64,000 bases of DNA, taken from positions 434,001 to 498,000 of the forward strand of contig NZ_JARVCO010000010.1 of NCBI RefSeq assembly GCF_034531395.1, written 5' to 3'. Under the pieces are notes generated by a model. That model ran no database searches. It was given only the letters and a program-made list of their open reading frames with translations, and was not told where the DNA came from. Positions 4,186 through 15,408 of the stretch are shown here, one piece after another. Position 1 is the first letter of the stretch. Each line of letters starts with the position of its first letter. This DNA is from Pontiella agarivorans (GTDB taxonomy: Bacteria > Verrucomicrobiota > Kiritimatiellia > Kiritimatiellales > Pontiellaceae). The position numbers and the translations under genes are program-made.

Positions 4186-4779
4186 TCAGCGCTGAGCGGT
4201 ATTTTCGAACGAAGCATCGAAGGCCCGCGGCGGATCCAGTACCACTTTGGCGAGTATCGCCTTGCGAAGTTCTGCCGGATTTTTCAGCGAGAAATTAATG
4301 GAGCCGGCTGCGTTGTTTTTCATCATCGGCATCGATGGTATGGCCGCAGAGATGAAAGAGGATTTCATCGCTGGCATGGCTGTTTTCGACGATTTCAGCG
4401 AAGTAACCTGTACGGCGTTCAATTCAATCACCGGCTCAATATTGACCGGTTCGGGCATGGTGATGATTTCTTCGGAGGCGGTTGTCGGAATCTCGTCATG
4501 TTCTTGCTGATATTCCTCATAAGCGGCCTGTTCTGCCGTATAATCGGGCTTGTCATAGCCATCCGGCCATTCCGGCAGGTCCACCGGTTTTTCGTTCGGA
4601 TCGAGCTTCCGGGCCAGTCCTTCAAAGAGGTCCTCCAGCGATGAAGAACGGCGCTGTTGCGGCTGCTCCTGCGCTTCCGCCGGCGTACGTTTTTCTTTTG
4701 CGCCGCGTTCCATCAGGAATTTCGCAAAGTTGATGAGCGCGATTACAATGAAAACCAGAAATGGAATTAAGTCATCCAT
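4186..4779 (-). CDS. Single-pass anchored acidic protein downstream of floA
   Basis: 197 residues. An N-terminal hydrophobic helix (residues 4-22) is followed by a long hydrophilic region rich in Glu, Gln and Pro (PAEAQEQPQQRR, EYQQEHDE) and a conserved-looking C-terminal patch, LKNPAELRKAILAKVVLDPPRAF. I do not recognise a family. Its position after nfeD, the bactofilin-like gene and floA suggests a membrane-scaffold accessory. An 11-bp perfect inverted repeat lies in the 87-bp gap before it and may set its expression relative to floA. Confidence 0.7.
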   Translation of the reverse strand: MDDLIPFLVFIVIALINFAKFLMERGAKEKRTPAEAQEQPQQRRSSSLEDLFEGLARKLDPNEKPVDLPEWPDGYDKPDYTAEQAAYEEYQQEHDEIPTTASEEIITMPEPVNIEPVIELNAVQVTSLKSSKTAMPAMKSSFISAAIPSMPMMKNNAAGSINFSLKNPAELRKAILAKVVLDPPRAFDASFENTAQR

Positions 4780-4815
4780 AAATCCTCCTGCGTCGGAAGT
4801 CGAAAAATCGAAGCC

Positions 4816-4850
4816 CGGAATCCGAAACAGGTATTCTGATTCGGATTCCG
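4816..4850 (-). repeat. Perfect 11-bp inverted repeat between floA and the next gene
   Basis: CGGAATCCGAA at 4816-4826 is exactly complementary to TTCGGATTCCG at 4840-4850 with a 13-base loop. It would form a strong hairpin in the transcript just after the floA stop, consistent with a partial terminator or mRNA-stabilising element. Confidence 0.6.
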
Positions 4851-4866
4851 AGGTCGGGTTCAGTGC

Positions 4867-5880
4867 TTAGGATTTGTTTTCGTTTTCGTCGTCACTTCCA
4901 GCAATGGATTCGCGCATGGAGGTGTCGGCCGAGATGTTCTGCATACGATAGAAATCCATGACGCCGAGATTGCCCTTGCGGAACGCTTCGGCCATGGCCA
5001 GCGGAACTTCGGCCTGGGCTTCAATCACTTTGGCCTGCATTTCCTGTACGCGGGCGCGCATTTCCTGCTCAGCGGCGATGGCCATCGCTTTGCGGCCTTC
5101 AGCCTCAGCCTGGCGCATAATCTTGTCGGCATCGGCGCGGTCGGTTTCCAGTTTTGCCCCGACGTTGGCAATCTGGCCGACGCCGGCAACAGATACGTCG
5201 GCGATATCGATCGAAACAATTTCGAAGGCGGTCTGGGCATCGAGTCCGGATTCGAGCACCTTGCGGCTGATGTGGTCGGGATTTTCGAGCACATCTTTAT
5301 AGGAATTCATTGAGCCGATGGCCGAGACGATCCCCTGGCCGACCCGGGCAATGATGGTGGATTCCGTGGCACCGCCGACGAGGCGGTCGAGATTGGTACG
5401 TACAGTAACGCGTGCTTTCACGAGCAGGCGGATACCGTCTTTGGCGACGGCGTCGAGCATGGCGCCGGAGGTGGATTCAGAGTCGGGGCAGTTGATGACC
5501 TTCGGGTTGACGGAGGTCTGTACGGCATCGACAATGTTACGGCCGGCCAGGTCGATGGCGGCTGCCTGCTGAAATTGAAGATCGATGTTGGCTTTATCGG
5601 CGGCGATCATGGCGCGCACGACGTTCTGCATGGAGCCGCCGGCAAGGTAGTGGGCTTCGAGCATGCCGGTGCCGATATCCAGGCCGGCTTTGACCGCGGA
5701 AATGTAGGTGAGGACCACCTGGTTCGGCGGCACACGGCGCAGTTTCATGCCGATCAGATCGCGGATGCGGACCGGGGCTTCGGCGAAGAGTGCACGAACC
5801 CACAGGTTGATGACGGAAACAGCCAGTGCAAAAAAGACCAGCAGGAACAGAATCAGCGGTATGAGAATCACATAGATCAT
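4867..5880 (-). CDS. floA: Flotillin-like membrane-microdomain scaffold FloA
   Basis: 337 residues, the normal length for FloA (YqfA/UPF0365). An N-terminal hydrophobic hairpin (2-27) anchors the protein to the membrane; the SPFH domain follows ([23 protein letters not shown], then [16 protein letters not shown]), then an Ala/Glu-rich coiled coil ([23 protein letters not shown]...). FloA organises functional membrane microdomains. The start overlaps the stop of the upstream bactofilin-like gene by 4 bp (ATGA), and nfeD lies before that, the usual nfeD-floA association with an extra gene inserted. Confidence 0.95.
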
Positions 5881-7061
5881 TTTTCATTCTCCTCGGGGTT
5901 GTAGTTTTCGTCTCTCAGCTTCTGAAGTTTATGTAAATCGGACGGCACCTGAAGAATCAGCCGCCGCTTTTCAATGAGAGCGATTATAAAGGATCCCATT
6001 CCCAGCAGCAAGACGATGATCTGTACAGGAATTCCAATGATGGGAAAAACGGCTGTGCCATAAATCACCGCCAGACCGGCCGAAACCGCGCCGATGACTT
6101 TGCCGAGGGAGTTCTGCGCTTTTTTGAGAATCAGGTTCCCGATGACCAGGGCGAGGAGAATGCGGCTAAGATATACCATTGCGGCCCACGAGCCGAGCAG
6201 GAGCATGCCGAGCGGAACTCCGATGAGTGATGAAAAACTCATGAGTCCGAAAAGGGGCAGCCCAAGTGAGGCCATCAGTCCTACCAGAATACATTTTCCC
6301 GGCGACCGTTTAATCAGCTGTGTCGACATGGCGGTGGTCATTGGAAACAGCGTGAGGAAGGGAATGCCGACAAGGATCGCCGCCACAAAACTGATCAGAA
6401 TTTTTTTCAGCCGGCCGGCATCGAACAGCTCCGGTTCGGGCGGGGTGGACACAGAGCCGCCAATCACATCGCCGTCGAGAAACAGTTTTTTGGGTGCACT
6501 GTATTCAAAGTCGCCTTCAATCCGGGCTCCTTGGGCAAAGACGATATCCTGTGCCCGAACAGAGACATTGCCGAGAATGGTTCCGGCAAAGGTGACCGTC
6601 TGTGCCGATACGTCGACATTGCCCTCAATATGCCCTTCCTGCACGATGCTCATGGCCCCGTAAATGTGGGCATTTCCATGAATATAGGCATTGGTGCCGA
6701 GGACAATGGTATTTCCGGCAGCCAGCAGATTGCCCGCAATTCCACCATCGACTTTGATGGTCGGAGAATAGATACGCAGGTTTCGTTCACAGCTGCCGGT
6801 CTGTTCAATGGCGGTAAGTGTGGCCGCGAGGACGTTGCCCTGATAGATGCCGGCGAGCTGCAGGGGGGCGGCGGTTCCAATGAATAAATCATTTCCAAAA
6901 GTACCCGACACATCGGCCTGATCAGCATAAACCCACTGTTCGTTTTCGACTGAAGTGCCGAGACTGACGGCATACATATTGGTGGAGATCCATGGAATTG
7001 CGGCCTGTGCCTGCAGGGCCGCGCAAAGCACGAGAGAGGAGAAAAATGGTTTTAATGGCAT
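5877..7061 (-). CDS. Bactofilin-like beta-roll protein with C-terminal membrane domain
   Basis: 394 residues. A signal peptide (1-20, cleavage near AQA-AI) precedes a repetitive region to about residue 205 whose short strands ([65 protein letters not shown]) have the periodicity of bactofilin/polymer-forming repeats. Four or more membrane helices follow (about 220-355) and a charged cytoplasmic tail. It sits between nfeD and floA, spaced 1 bp and overlapped 4 bp, so the three are almost certainly one operon. An extracytoplasmic beta-roll on a membrane base would suit a scaffold joined to the flotillin. Confidence 0.85.
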
Positions 7062-7062
7062 A

Positions 7063-7533
7063 TTACACTTTCACGACGGAGACATGGCCGCCGGAGGTTG
7101 AGGAAACTTGGATGTGCTGGCCGGCTTCAATCCATTCGCCGTCGGCCATGACATCGATTCGTTTTCCGTTAAAGACGGCAATGCCGGACGGGCGCAGGGT
7201 GGAAACGGCTTCGCCTTCGGTGCCGATTTCAATCTTTTCTTCCATCGGCGATTTATACTCGGCTTGGTTTTCCTGCAGCGAAAGACTTTTTCCGATTCGG
7301 CTTTTCGGGAAATAGCGGATCCAGACGATCAGGGTCATGATGCCGAAGAGCAGCAGCCCGAGTGCACTCACCATGTTCCAGGGTTCGGAAAAATTCCGCC
7401 AGCCGATAACGGCGGCTACAATCCATGCAACGGATCCGAAGATGCCGAGGATGCCGCCGGGAATGAAAATCTCCATACCGATCAGCACAAAGCCGACCAG
7501 CAGAAGGGTCAAATATAGAGTAATCGGTTCCAT
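7063..7533 (-). CDS. nfeD: NfeD-family membrane protein (short form)
   Basis: 156 residues. Two or three membrane helices (about 5-20, 28-45, 52-72) are followed by the C-terminal OB-fold typical of NfeD (GTEGEAVSTLRPSGIAVFNGKRIDVMADGEWIEAG). The ClpP-like protease domain of long NfeD proteins is absent, as in the short forms paired with flotillins. It is first in a block with the bactofilin-like gene and floA; only 1 bp separates its stop from the next start. Confidence 0.9.
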   Translation of the reverse strand: MEPITLYLTLLLVGFVLIGMEIFIPGGILGIFGSVAWIVAAVIGWRNFSEPWNMVSALGLLLFGIMTLIVWIRYFPKSRIGKSLSLQENQAEYKSPMEEKIEIGTEGEAVSTLRPSGIAVFNGKRIDVMADGEWIEAGQHIQVSSTSGGHVSVVKV

Positions 7534-8157: not shown

Positions 8158-9585
<1,428 letters not shown>

Positions 9586-11197: not shown

Positions 11198-13018
11198 ATG
11201 CGGGCGTATATGTTGAACAAATGGAACAGGAACGGGATAGGCTCGGTGATAGGGTTGGCCTTGGCGCTGCTGACCGGCTGTTCGACGATTCCTGAACGCG
11301 ACCTGGAAAATGCATTCACGTATCAGCGTCTGAAGCGGTATGAGGTGCATGAAGTCGCACCCATTGAGTCTGAATTTATAGACCTTGCTTCCAAGGCCTG
11401 GAAAAACAAAGAGAACGGAAATCCGGCGCAGTACATCAGTATTCTTGAACTGGGCGACGATGCCTTGCTGGCGCGGGTCCACCTGATCCGTGCCGCGAAA
11501 CGCTCGATTGACCTGCAGACGTTTATCTGGAAGGACGATGCCACCAGCCGATTTGTTTTTGATGAGCTGGTCCGCGCGGCCGAGCGCGGGGTGCTGGTCC
11601 GGATGCTGATCGATGCCATGGTTACTCCCGCGGATTCAAAGCAGCTGGCCCGAATGGCGCGGGCGCACCATAATCTTGAGATTGCACTCTATAAGCCCAT
11701 GGCGGAAACGTCATATGTCGGCCGAATCGGCTTCTGGAAAAATCTGGCTTTCAAAAGCCGGCGCATGAACCGGCGCATGCACAACAAGCTGCTGCTGATC
11801 GATGGGCAGGTTGGTATTTCAGGCGGACGGAACTATCAGGACAGATATTTTGACCGCGATACGGATTTTCTTTTCCGCGATCGTGATGTGGTGGTGGCCG
11901 GTCCTGCGGTGAGGGATATGCAGGATTCCTTTGAGCTTTTCTGGCAGGATAAGGATGCCGTTTTTCTGACCCAGTTTCCTGATGTGCAGAAAGAATTTAA
12001 ATCCCTCCCGGAGCAGTCAGGCCGGCTGTCCGATCCTGCTGATGCCGGGATGTTTGAAGAGATCAGCCGGCTGGCCGATGCCTATTCCATTTCCAGCCAT
12101 CGGAACTCACTGAGTGTCTATGAAGCCGACCGGGTCAGTTTTGTCTACGACACTCCGCGCAAATTCCGGGGCAGAAAAGAGCGCCTGAGTTTTGATGAAT
12201 ATTTTGAGGCGGTTCTTTTGCAGAGTGAGGAGCGGTTGGTGTATCAGACGCCCTATCTCATCTACAGCCGTGATCAACGCCGTGCGTTTAAGGCCCTCCG
12301 TAAAACCAATCCGAAATTCCGTATCATCGCCTCCAGCAACAGTCTGGCGTCGGCCGATCACCTTCCGGTCTACGGAGTTTCGTTCAAGCACCGGAAAGAG
12401 CTCTATCAAAAAGCCGGGATCGATATTTACGAAGCCAAGCCTTTTCCCGCCGCGCAGCGTGAATATGTGTATGACTATGACCGGATTCTTGATCGGGCCA
12501 TTCAGAAAGCCGGCATCACCGACCGCAGCGAAATTCCCCATATCGAGCGTGCAGGACCGATACTCTGTATTCACTCTAAATCGTTCGTGCTCGATGGTCG
12601 GATTACCCTGATCGGCTCGCATAATTTCGATCCGCGTTCGGCCAAGCTCAACACCGAATGCGGCGTATTTATTTTTGATGAAGAAGTTTCGGCTGTTCTC
12701 GAAAAAAGAATTCTCGAAGCATGTGAACCTTCCAATGCCTGGACCGTCAGTAAAGGCAAGCACACGCCGGTCATTTCACATTTCAGCGGTTTTGTCGGAA
12801 CCATTTCAACGGCACTTCCGGTTTTTGATGTGTGGCCCTACCGCTATACAACCAATTATGAACTGAAAGACGGCTGCGCTGTCCTGGGACCGCGCGATCC
12901 GGATTTTAAGAACAATTATACCGATGTCGGCTATTTCCCCGAAGTGGAGAGTTCGGTTAAAGTCATTCAGACCCGACTTGCAAAAGGATTCCTCGGATGG
13001 GGTCGCCCATTCATGTAA
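11198..13018 (+). CDS. Phospholipase D-family lipoprotein (cardiolipin-synthase-like)
   Basis: 606 residues from ATG 11198; ATG 11210 is an alternative. A lipobox LALLTGC places the modified Cys at residue 28. Two HKD motifs are complete: HNKLLLID (195-202) with GGRNYQDRYF after it, and HSKSFVLD (about 459-466) followed by GSHNFDPRSAKLNTE. This arrangement matches envelope PLD proteins of the YmdC/ClsC type, which transfer phosphatidyl groups between lipids. It is followed 14 bp later by the Cache-AlbA gene, so the two are probably cotranscribed, perhaps linking an envelope signal with lipid remodelling. Confidence 0.9.
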   Translation: MRAYMLNKWNRNGIGSVIGLALALLTGCSTIPERDLENAFTYQRLKRYEVHEVAPIESEFIDLASKAWKNKENGNPAQYISILELGDDALLARVHLIRAAKRSIDLQTFIWKDDATSRFVFDELVRAAERGVLVRMLIDAMVTPADSKQLARMARAHHNLEIALYKPMAETSYVGRIGFWKNLAFKSRRMNRRMHNKLLLIDGQVGISGGRNYQDRYFDRDTDFLFRDRDVVVAGPAVRDMQDSFELFWQDKDAVFLTQFPDVQKEFKSLPEQSGRLSDPADAGMFEEISRLADAYSISSHRNSLSVYEADRVSFVYDTPRKFRGRKERLSFDEYFEAVLLQSEERLVYQTPYLIYSRDQRRAFKALRKTNPKFRIIASSNSLASADHLPVYGVSFKHRKELYQKAGIDIYEAKPFPAAQREYVYDYDRILDRAIQKAGITDRSEIPHIERAGPILCIHSKSFVLDGRITLIGSHNFDPRSAKLNTECGVFIFDEEVSAVLEKRILEACEPSNAWTVSKGKHTPVISHFSGFVGTISTALPVFDVWPYRYTTNYELKDGCAVLGPRDPDFKNNYTDVGYFPEVESSVKVIQTRLAKGFLGWGRPFM

Positions 13019-13032
13019 ACACGGAGAACACC

Positions 13033-14586
13033 ATGCTGAGCAGACGATTCACACGAGACCTCATTCTGGTGCTCATCATATTATCCGTTGCCATTGCGGC
13101 CCCCGTGGCCTACTTCGCCACGCAGGCTCGCCGCGATATATCGGAGCAGTTTATTTTCGATGCCTCCAACCGCGCCGTCGAACGCTTCCGGGGTATGGCT
13201 CAGTCCATGGAGGCCACACTCGGTCTGATGCGTGACTGGGGGATTTCCGGTCAGTTGCATTTGGAAAAAGACGATGATCTTGCCCGGTTCCTTTTTCCGG
13301 TCTTCACCCGCGAGAAGCAGTTGACCGGAATCTCTGTCGGCACTCAGTCCGGTGAAAGTTTCTCCGTCTGGCGCGATGGAAACCGGTTCCGCTCCCGGCA
13401 TGTCCATATGAGCGGCGGAGAAAATAATGCGGAAGAAAAATACTGGACATCCCAGGCCGAAATACTGGAAGAGAGCACCGCAACCTCAACGTATGATCCT
13501 CGTCTCAGGCCTTGGTTTACCCCGGCGCTGACCTCCCGGAAAATTCAGTGGACGCAGCCCTATAAATTCCATTCAACACAGCGCGTGGGTATTACGGCCT
13601 CTACCTCATTCCTCCGTAAAGACGATGGCGAGCCGGTGGTCCTTGCGTTTGATATGCAGCTCGATAAACTGTTCGAGGATTTTTCCGGTCTGTCGCCCAG
13701 TGATCATTCCCGAATCATTATTTTTCGACACGACAACCAGCTCTACCGGCCGGGCGGCGATTCGCTGGAACCGGGGTTCATGCCCATGGTTGATGTCGAA
13801 GATTCGCTTATTCGCAAAGTGCACGCCAATTGGACCGGCGAAGAAGATCTGGCCGGCCGTGTAGTTTCTGTGCTTCATGACGGCGCGGTATGGTGGTGCG
13901 GGTTTCAGCCCCTGGAAAAAGAAAGCCGTAACACCTGGATCTGCGTCATGATCCCCGAAAAGGACATCACCGGCCATGCCGGCCGCCGTATGTACCGCGT
14001 TATCGGAGTGGGCATCCTTTCCCTGATCATCGCTTCCGGGCTCGCCGTCTGGCTGGTTTATCGCGGCCATCGTTCTTTCGAAGGAGCAGCCCTGTTCGAT
14101 CCCGAACATCCCGAATCCAGCCTGCGTCAGCTCATCGAGCAGGGGGAGAACCGTGCCGTCGAATTCAAATCGACCCTGCGCATGAATCTGCACTCCAAAA
14201 AACCGGGCAAGGAAATTGAGCTCGCCTGGATCAAAGGGGTTGCCGGTTTTCTCAATACCGACGGCGGAGTTCTGCTGCTCGGAGTCACCGACGACGGTGA
14301 AATTACCGGTCTCGAACGCGATGTGTTTGAAAACGAAGACAAATGCCGGCTCCATTTCAAAAATCTCATCAGTAAACATATCGGTGCAGACCGTTCCAAA
14401 TATATCCGCTTTCTCCTTGTTCCAATCGATGGGAAAACCGTCGGGGTTGTCCGCTGCGCCCGGGCGGAAGAACCCGTATTTGTGAAGGACGGCAACAAAG
14501 AACACTTCTATATCCGCAACGGCCCGTCCTCCGACGAACTGCCCGTCAGCCAGGCCCTCAATTATATTAAACGCCGAAAACGATAA
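13033..14586 (+). CDS. Membrane Cache-type sensor fused to a cytoplasmic AlbA/Schlafen domain
   Basis: 517 residues from ATG 13033, which has a GGAG site 9 bases upstream. One helix at about 9-29 and another at about 323-345 enclose a periplasmic sensor-like region with dCache features (RGMAQSMEATLGLMRDW, TYDPRLRPWFTPAL, TQPYKFHSTQRVGITAS, WWCGFQPL). The cytoplasmic part (about 365-512) is an AlbA_2/Schlafen-type domain: GENRAVEFKSTL, then GVAGFLNTDGGVLLLGVTDDGEITG, and a C-terminal RNGPSSDELPVSQALNYI. AlbA_2 domains are linked to nucleic-acid binding or cleavage. Joining one to a membrane ligand sensor is unusual. The gene lies 14 bp after the phospholipase D gene. Confidence 0.83.
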   Translation: MLSRRFTRDLILVLIILSVAIAAPVAYFATQARRDISEQFIFDASNRAVERFRGMAQSMEATLGLMRDWGISGQLHLEKDDDLARFLFPVFTREKQLTGISVGTQSGESFSVWRDGNRFRSRHVHMSGGENNAEEKYWTSQAEILEESTATSTYDPRLRPWFTPALTSRKIQWTQPYKFHSTQRVGITASTSFLRKDDGEPVVLAFDMQLDKLFEDFSGLSPSDHSRIIIFRHDNQLYRPGGDSLEPGFMPMVDVEDSLIRKVHANWTGEEDLAGRVVSVLHDGAVWWCGFQPLEKESRNTWICVMIPEKDITGHAGRRMYRVIGVGILSLIIASGLAVWLVYRGHRSFEGAALFDPEHPESSLRQLIEQGENRAVEFKSTLRMNLHSKKPGKEIELAWIKGVAGFLNTDGGVLLLGVTDDGEITGLERDVFENEDKCRLHFKNLISKHIGADRSKYIRFLLVPIDGKTVGVVRCARAEEPVFVKDGNKEHFYIRNGPSSDELPVSQALNYIKRRKR

Positions 14587-14640: not shown

Positions 14641-15408
14641 ATGAAACTATTTGATGCACATAATCACATTCAGGATAACCGGCTGTTTCCCGACCTTGAA
14701 AAAGTAATGAAACGGGCGGCTGAGGTCGGTGTTGTAAAGATGGGAATAAAGGGGTGTTGCGAGAGCGATTGGCCGCGGGTCATCGACCTCTCGAAAACCT
14801 ATGACGGAATCTATCCTTCATTCGGTCTGCACCCGTGGTTCATCAGCGAACGTTCTGAACAGTGGCTGCGGACGCTGGAAAATCTGCTGATGGAATATCC
14901 TGAAGCCGCCGTCGGAGAAATCGGAATTGATCATGCCGTTGAAGAGCGCGACGACGTGGAGCAGGAAAAGGTATTTTTCCAGCAGTTGGAACTGGCGCGG
15001 ACACTGGAACGCCCGGTTTCGATTCACTGCCGGCGGGCATGGGGGCGGCTGATCGAGTTGCTGGATGACTTCGGGAAGCTGCCGTGCGGGATGCTGATCC
15101 ATTGTTTCGGCGGGTCGGCCGAAGTTGCGACAGAGCTGGTGAAACGCGGCGGTTATATTTCGTTTTCCGGTTCCATCACCCGTCCGAATGCCCGCAAGGC
15201 CGGCCCGGCCATACGCGCCGTGCCCGATGACCGTATTCTAATCGAAACCGATGCGCCGGATATTTTGCCGACCACGGCGACGGGGCATTTGAATGAACCG
15301 GCGAATGTGAAACTGGTTTTGGAAAAAGCCGCCGAGTTTCGCGGCCTTCCGGCGGAGACGCTGGCCGAATTAACCTTCCGAAATGCCGAGCGCTTCTTCG
15401 GGTTCTGA
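14641..15408 (+). CDS. TatD-family metal-dependent hydrolase
   Basis: 255 residues. TIM-barrel amidohydrolase with the family metal ligands visible: FDAHNHIQD at the N-terminus, GEIGIDH around 97-103, SIHCRRAW, LIHCFGG and ILIETDAPD. TatD proteins are Mg-dependent DNases implicated in DNA turnover and repair. The ribosome site (AAGAAG) is weak. The last 39 bp overlap, tail to tail, the convergent small gene on the minus strand. Confidence 0.92.
   Translation: MKLFDAHNHIQDNRLFPDLEKVMKRAAEVGVVKMGIKGCCESDWPRVIDLSKTYDGIYPSFGLHPWFISERSEQWLRTLENLLMEYPEAAVGEIGIDHAVEERDDVEQEKVFFQQLELARTLERPVSIHCRRAWGRLIELLDDFGKLPCGMLIHCFGGSAEVATELVKRGGYISFSGSITRPNARKAGPAIRAVPDDRILIETDAPDILPTTATGHLNEPANVKLVLEKAAEFRGLPAETLAELTFRNAERFFGF

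Follow-up and report, generated by a model that had tools for sequence, protein, structure and literature searches.

The locus lies in a 64,000-nucleotide stretch of a Pontiella agarivorans contig (NZ_JARVCO010000010.1, positions 434,001 to 498,000), referred to as the window throughout. Its central gene encodes a protein of 517 aa in which a periplasmic sensor and a cytoplasmic AlbA_2/Schlafen domain are joined in one membrane-bound chain, flanked by genes for a phospholipase D (PLD)-superfamily lipoprotein and a TatD-family protein. The features, in window coordinates, are as follows:

11210..13018, + strand: PLD-superfamily lipoprotein gene, upstream neighbour (Pfam PLDc_2, 1.2e-30)
13033..14586, + strand: dCache-AlbA_2 receptor gene, 517 aa (Pfam, structure models, 75 related loci)
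13060..13116, + strand: transmembrane (TM) helix 1, residues 10-28 (hydropathy 2.74)
13117..13983, + strand: periplasmic double Cache domain, residues 29-317 (Z 18.8 to the Mlp24 ligand-binding domain; phmmer)
13492..13653, + strand: distal-pocket dCache_1AA residues Y154, R159, W161, Y177 and D207 (alignment to PctA)
13999..14055, + strand: TM helix 2, residues 323-341 (hydropathy 2.41)
14146..14541, + strand: cytoplasmic SLFN_AlbA_2 domain, residues 372-503 (Pfam, 1.6e-20)
14146..14169, + strand: ExxxxExK metal motif, E372-NRAV-E377-F-K379 (invariant, 69/69)
14290..14292, + strand: D420, third acidic active-site position (invariant, 69/69)
14641..15408, + strand: TatD-family gene, downstream neighbour, 54 bp away (Pfam, 1.4e-70)

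The stop codon of the PLD gene occupies positions 13016-13018 and the receptor ATG lies at 13033, which leaves the 14 bp between the two genes that had been read from the sequence originally; an in-frame ATG at 12997 is a possible alternative start and would overlap the PLD gene. Judged from the RR..RD that precedes TM helix 1, the N-terminus is predicted to be cytoplasmic, and the layout is TM helix, periplasmic domain, TM helix and cytoplasmic SLFN_AlbA_2. A Pfam scan of the protein found no HAMP, kinase, cyclase or MCP domain, and no HTH or other specificity domain; the linker of about 30 residues between TM helix 2 and the AlbA_2 domain is likewise free of HAMP or kinase. The core of the original prediction thus holds: two membrane helices (residues 10-28 and 323-341 by hydropathy) enclose a sensor with the double Cache fold in the model, the cytoplasmic output is AlbA_2 (E=1.6e-20) in place of a kinase, cyclase or methyl-accepting domain, and, with dCache and AlbA_2 in one chain, the protein is a single-protein membrane receptor whose output is predicted to act on nucleic acid.

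At the level of profile searches, the confirmation of the two domains was complete for the output and partial for the sensor. SLFN_AlbA_2 (PF04326) scored 74.2 bits against a gathering cutoff of 25.3 and MCP-like_PDC_1 (PF22673) reached 28.7 against a cutoff of 27 over residues 143-213, but dCache_1 (PF02743), at 15.6 bits, missed its gathering score of 45. A phmmer search against the PDB returned the dCache domains of Mlp24 (6iop) and PctA, with Schlafen proteins matched weakly. The AlphaFold2 model of the receptor, built from 13 relatives (mean pLDDT 81.5), shows two alpha/beta subdomains besides a long helix at the N-terminus and the second TM helix. Residues 29-317 of the model superpose on the ligand-binding domain of Mlp24 over 233 residues (Z 18.8, 3.1 A; Foldseek, VIA-align), and on Tlp3 and PctA at Z 18.5 and 17.7 (VIA-align). 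Because the model aligns with these chemoreceptor domains, the sensor is, on the model, a true double Cache (dCache) despite the dCache_1 score below cutoff.

The receptor also carries all five residues of the dCache_1AA motif (Tyr, Arg, Trp, Tyr, Asp), in which the first Tyr, the Arg and the Trp bind the carboxyl group of the ligand and the second Tyr and the Asp bind its amino group (PMC11237719). In the alignment to PctA, Y154, R159, W161, Y177 and D207 correspond to Y121, R126, W128, Y144 and D173 (PctA pocket numbering from PMC10104139 and PMC11245519). They are kept in 49/69, 65/69, 67/69, 66/69 and 65/69 full-length relatives, respectively; of the 25 columns in the sensor and TM regions with a conservation of at least 85%, four belong to this set of five. 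R126 of PctA distinguishes amino-acid from amine sensors, and D173 is missing in purine sensors; since the equivalents of both are retained, our best guess from the sequence is that the ligand would most likely be an amino acid or a close analogue. The position of PctA D146 is taken by F179, which is 96% conserved in the family, so the exact ligand may differ.

The AlbA_2 domain was modelled from 30 relatives (pLDDT 95), and the best structural match of the model was DIP2311 (3lmm, Z 14.0). Structures of the SAMD9 DNA-binding/tRNase domain followed at Z 13.4 (7ksp) and 13.1, the catalytic C-lobes of SLFN14, SLFN11, SLFN5, SLFN12 and SLFN13 at about 9-10, and the next unrelated folds at Z < 6. 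The HMM alignment places E372, E377, K379 and D420, unchanged in 69/69 full-length relatives, on E206, E211, K213 and D249 of SLFN14. RNase activity of that enzyme requires the E-E-K residues, which serve in metal coordination or RNA contact, and the Asp is auxiliary (PMC12215978); the equivalent triad of SLFN13 is catalytic (PMC5862951). The ExxxxExK motif is not specific proof of an RNase, since all AlbA_2 relatives examined carry it, non-receptor ones included. In addition, a single AlbA_2 lobe is present within the 517 aa; the two-lobe RNA clamp of the vertebrate Schlafen core is absent, and the invariant R133 of SLFN14 falls in the missing lobe.

The same design recurs widely. A scan of 84,980 GTDB species genomes yielded 75 loci with the dCache-AlbA_2 architecture; two or more TM helices are predicted in 68 of them, and the other seven are split or lie at the edge of a contig. 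They are found in Kiritimatiellota, Verrucomicrobiota, Pseudomonadota (gammaproteobacteria, many of them Chromatiaceae), Thermodesulfobacteriota, Myxococcota, Krumholzibacteriota and Bacteroidota, and include cultured species such as Thiocystis violacea, Marichromatium gracile, Desulfosarcina widdelii and Pontiella sulfatireligans. The dCache-AlbA_2 proteins are therefore a real, dispersed family, far beyond chance. The distribution is patchy, as a near full-length match was found in only 7 of 288 genomes drawn from the window's own phylum (five of the same genus, the window's own included, plus G228 and G044). Phage records gave no match to the receptor, and plasmid records gave no full-length copy, their matches being partial and covering one domain at a time. 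Two copies from metagenome-assembled genomes labelled Deltaproteobacteria and Desulfuromonadales (L113, L114) nest within the Pontiellaceae clade, a placement that points to gene transfer or to contigs binned wrongly.

Both modules also occur in other combinations. The same AlbA_2 subtype follows a restriction-type GmrSD_N domain in a Pontiella-genus protein that is likely a defence effector (L046:4197-6458); in another protein (L049:6688-7974) a cyclic-nucleotide-binding domain precedes two predicted TM helices and AlbA_2, possibly making it another signal-gated membrane Schlafen. In related genomes the subtype is found behind a short membrane segment (L048) or soluble N-termini (L043-L045, L047), and a histidine kinase (L027) carries the same dCache type. 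Plug-in sensor and effector modules would be expected to show such exchange, which speaks for the receptor reading given below; the receptor thus combines two modules that already exist in other proteins.

Regarding the neighbouring genes, the PLD lipoprotein has a lipobox (LTGC) and two HxKxxxxD motifs; its assignment as a cardiolipin synthase was rejected because all NCBIfam models scored below cutoff. The TatD gene is present in 27 of 28 genomes of the genus, some of which have no receptor. A match to QatD (7.5e-26) was set aside in view of the Pfam TatD match (1.4e-70) and the occurrence of the gene with and without the receptor, and for the same reasons it was treated as housekeeping. Within the genus Pontiella the order PLD-receptor-TatD is conserved and the genes often overlap, which suggests an operon, and nearly all examined Pontiellaceae have the PLD gene upstream of the receptor. 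However, PLD adjoins TatD without the receptor in three genomes (G014, G019, G007), and a fourth (G009) has the receptor and TatD with no PLD; a functional unit of the three genes was rejected, as these four genomes break the arrangement and it does not occur outside Pontiellaceae. A tree of the PLD gene does not place the three genomes without the receptor together. Elsewhere in the family, G012 retains a 175-aa remnant from which the ExxxxExK motif and the greater part of the sensor are missing, and in G005 the receptor C-terminus is cut by an IS3-like element with OrfA/OrfB-like ORFs (L032:9780-11300), the missing end lying about 1.4 kb downstream. With three absences, one deletion remnant and one insertion, the receptor is dispensable and has been repeatedly lost in Pontiellaceae.

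We infer that the protein works as a receptor with an enzymatic output. The periplasmic amino-acid-type dCache_1 domain would sense a small ligand, with an amino acid or something closely similar as the most likely candidate, and the signal would pass through TM helix 2 and the linker to alter the arrangement of the cytoplasmic AlbA_2 domain. The latter is predicted to be a Mg/Mn-dependent endoribonuclease with tRNA or other structured RNA as its substrate. Schlafen cores clamp RNA with two lobes, and a receptor chain has a single one; the likely switch would therefore be a receptor dimer in which the ligand drives a change that brings two AlbA_2 domains together or apart. MCP- and kinase-type dCache receptors act as dimers, which fits such a switch. 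Translation would thereby be adjusted to outside nutrients or stress, whichever the sign of the control may be. Our confidence is evenly divided on whether an amino-acid-type dCache receptor directly gates a membrane-tethered Schlafen-type endoribonuclease in this way and so tunes translation. The wider proposal, that these proteins form a widespread bacterial class of receptor-ribonucleases in which an extracellular amino acid at the dCache domain switches a Schlafen tRNA nuclease, giving nutrient-gated control of translation with no kinase, second messenger or transcription factor, is put forward tentatively, as a serious possibility. Counting against the RNase-receptor reading are the variation of Y154 (49/69), F179 in place of PctA D146, the single lobe and the dispensability of the gene. 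No genomic neighbour in the loci examined ties the receptor to translation.

The invariance of the active site also bears on a reading in which the protein would be a membrane-bound regulator without catalysis, its AlbA_2 domain binding DNA or RNA to control transcription as a one-component system or to regulate mRNA localisation. Nucleic-acid binding is the common annotation of prokaryotic AlbA_2 proteins, the AlbA_2 domain of SAMD9 was crystallised with DNA (7ksp, Z 13.4) and SLFN5 structures are titled DNA/RNA binding protein. However, E372, E377, K379 and D420 are kept in 69/69 relatives over several phyla, beyond what nucleic-acid binding by itself would call for, and the receptor has no HTH or other specificity domain, so we consider this reading unlikely. 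Genomic context outside Pontiellaceae raises a further one. In 12 gammaproteobacterial loci, all of one clade (L142, L128, L137, L138, L141, L146, L152, L155, L159, L160, L164, L177), the receptor gene adjoins a squalene/phytoene synthase gene (hpnC-like). In the one scanned in full (L142:4889-10325) it lies between hpnC-like and hpnD/hpnE-like genes, a second squalene/phytoene synthase gene and an amine-oxidase gene following, and thus inside a hopanoid-synthesis (hpnC-hpnD) operon. Upstream of the receptor gene in four Chromatiaceae lie IspH/DAO-type genes (scanned in L161, with the same layout in the other three), and in L163 a PLD/cardiolipin-synthase-like gene lies upstream, independently of Pontiellaceae. 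The receptor could accordingly be an envelope-lipid homeostasis switch that senses the state of the periplasm or membrane and thereby controls how strongly the neighbouring membrane-lipid genes are expressed, PLD/cardiolipin-synthase-like in Pontiellaceae and hpnC-hpnD-hpnE in gammaproteobacteria. The 12 loci, the further hopanoid genes of L142, the PLD gene of nearly all examined Pontiellaceae and the independent one of L163 speak for it. On the other side, each association apart from L163 is confined to a single clade, leaving very few independent events, most of the receptor's contexts are unrelated, and the PLD-TatD pair persists without the receptor. We regard such a switch as quite improbable, and the hopanoid link, real as synteny in the 12 loci, was rejected as the main reading for its restriction to one clade.

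The original prediction had further proposed that the receptor and the PLD lipoprotein form an envelope-damage or phage-sensing unit. Read as an abortive-infection sensor, the periplasmic domain would detect attack or damage and unleash the Schlafen RNase. According to PMC12839542 (citing 10.1101/2025.07.24.666596), systems linked to Schlafens can take part in the defence of prokaryotes against phages, and the patchy distribution, the repeated loss and the fusion of the same AlbA_2 subtype to GmrSD_N in L046 are in keeping with a role of this kind. The context is not: PADLOC, run on 44 proteins of the window and 50 encoded next to relatives, detected no defence genes and yielded only cross-hits (FtsK to the SspH and mad8 models, endonuclease III and PLD/DrmC), so the idea of a defence island was rejected. 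On the receptor itself PADLOC gave no meaningful match (weak pAgo only, E 0.019). The PLD neighbour is conserved in Pontiellaceae only, with one separate PLD neighbour in Thiohalocapsa. As the receptor is also absent from phage records, has no full-length plasmid copy and retains pocket residues that fit a small amino-acid-like ligand, the sensing of envelope damage or phage was not supported and we judge it quite improbable. In the window-wide Pfam tally the neighbours are housekeeping genes (enolase, FtsK, RuvB, BipA, FloA and others). The enolase gene (window 8158-9564, - strand) encodes a long C-terminal tail that is rich in lysine and made up of SKKKA-type repeats, and its ORF length differs among Pontiella relatives (468, 450 and 425 aa); upstream of it, a minus-strand membrane-protein cluster (window 4186-7533) probably corresponds to the FloA/Band_7-type genes of that tally.

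The architecture is not rare, occurring in dozens of species of several phyla, and no description of a Cache plus Schlafen protein was found in the open-access literature; the dCache-AlbA_2 receptor design is apparently undescribed so far. The outputs named in the 2016 survey of Cache domains are kinases, MCPs, cyclases and diesterases, phosphatases, transcription factors and ion channels, with no nuclease among them (PMC4822843). Since the proteins used to build its models were ones whose outputs were known beforehand, a nuclease output would have escaped that survey. If the RNase-receptor reading is true, the list gains a type of receptor in which a chemical outside the cell is linked directly to RNA cleavage, and Schlafen domains work in ordinary signalling and not solely in immunity. 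With the family present in cultured species, the idea is testable now.

Several known systems share parts of this design. The PUCH complex of C. elegans (TOFU-1/TOFU-2/SLFL-3 or SLFL-4) is likewise a membrane-anchored Schlafen-domain nuclease, as predicted for the receptor, and its activity requires several Schlafen domains together (PMC10567574), but it is a hetero-trimer for piRNA processing with a mitochondrial TM anchor and no sensor domain. Bacterial anti-phage Schlafens, as presented in PMC12839542, also have an AlbA_2/Schlafen effector, which is either BREX-linked or joined to a minimal histidine kinase and wHTH, whereas the receptor has a dCache sensor and lies outside any defence locus. 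SAMD9/SAMD9L resemble it in using a single AlbA_2 domain (Z 13.1) as the effector of a larger sensor protein; they are cytosolic STAND-like host proteins, and the SAMD9 acidic residues are spaced E184/E196/D241 (PMC11221667), in contrast to ExxxxE here. With the vertebrate Schlafen RNases (SLFN11, SLFN12, SLFN13, SLFN14) the receptor has in common the catalytic-lobe fold and the ExxxxExK motif plus Asp; those enzymes have two lobes, and the receptor has one, is membrane-anchored, carries a periplasmic sensor and has no bridging or helicase domains. The dCache_1AA chemoreceptors (PctA, Mlp24, Tlp3) also place a double Cache between two TM helices (fold Z 17-19) with the same Y, R, W, Y and D pocket residues, but their output is HAMP plus an MCP signalling domain, where here AlbA_2 directly follows TM helix 2 and the ligand class is predicted. 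Finally, IRE1, although built of unrelated domains, with a kinase plus KEN RNase in the eukaryotic ER, follows a logic similar to that of the proposed receptor: a lumenal sensor, one membrane crossing and a cytosolic RNase switched by oligomerisation.
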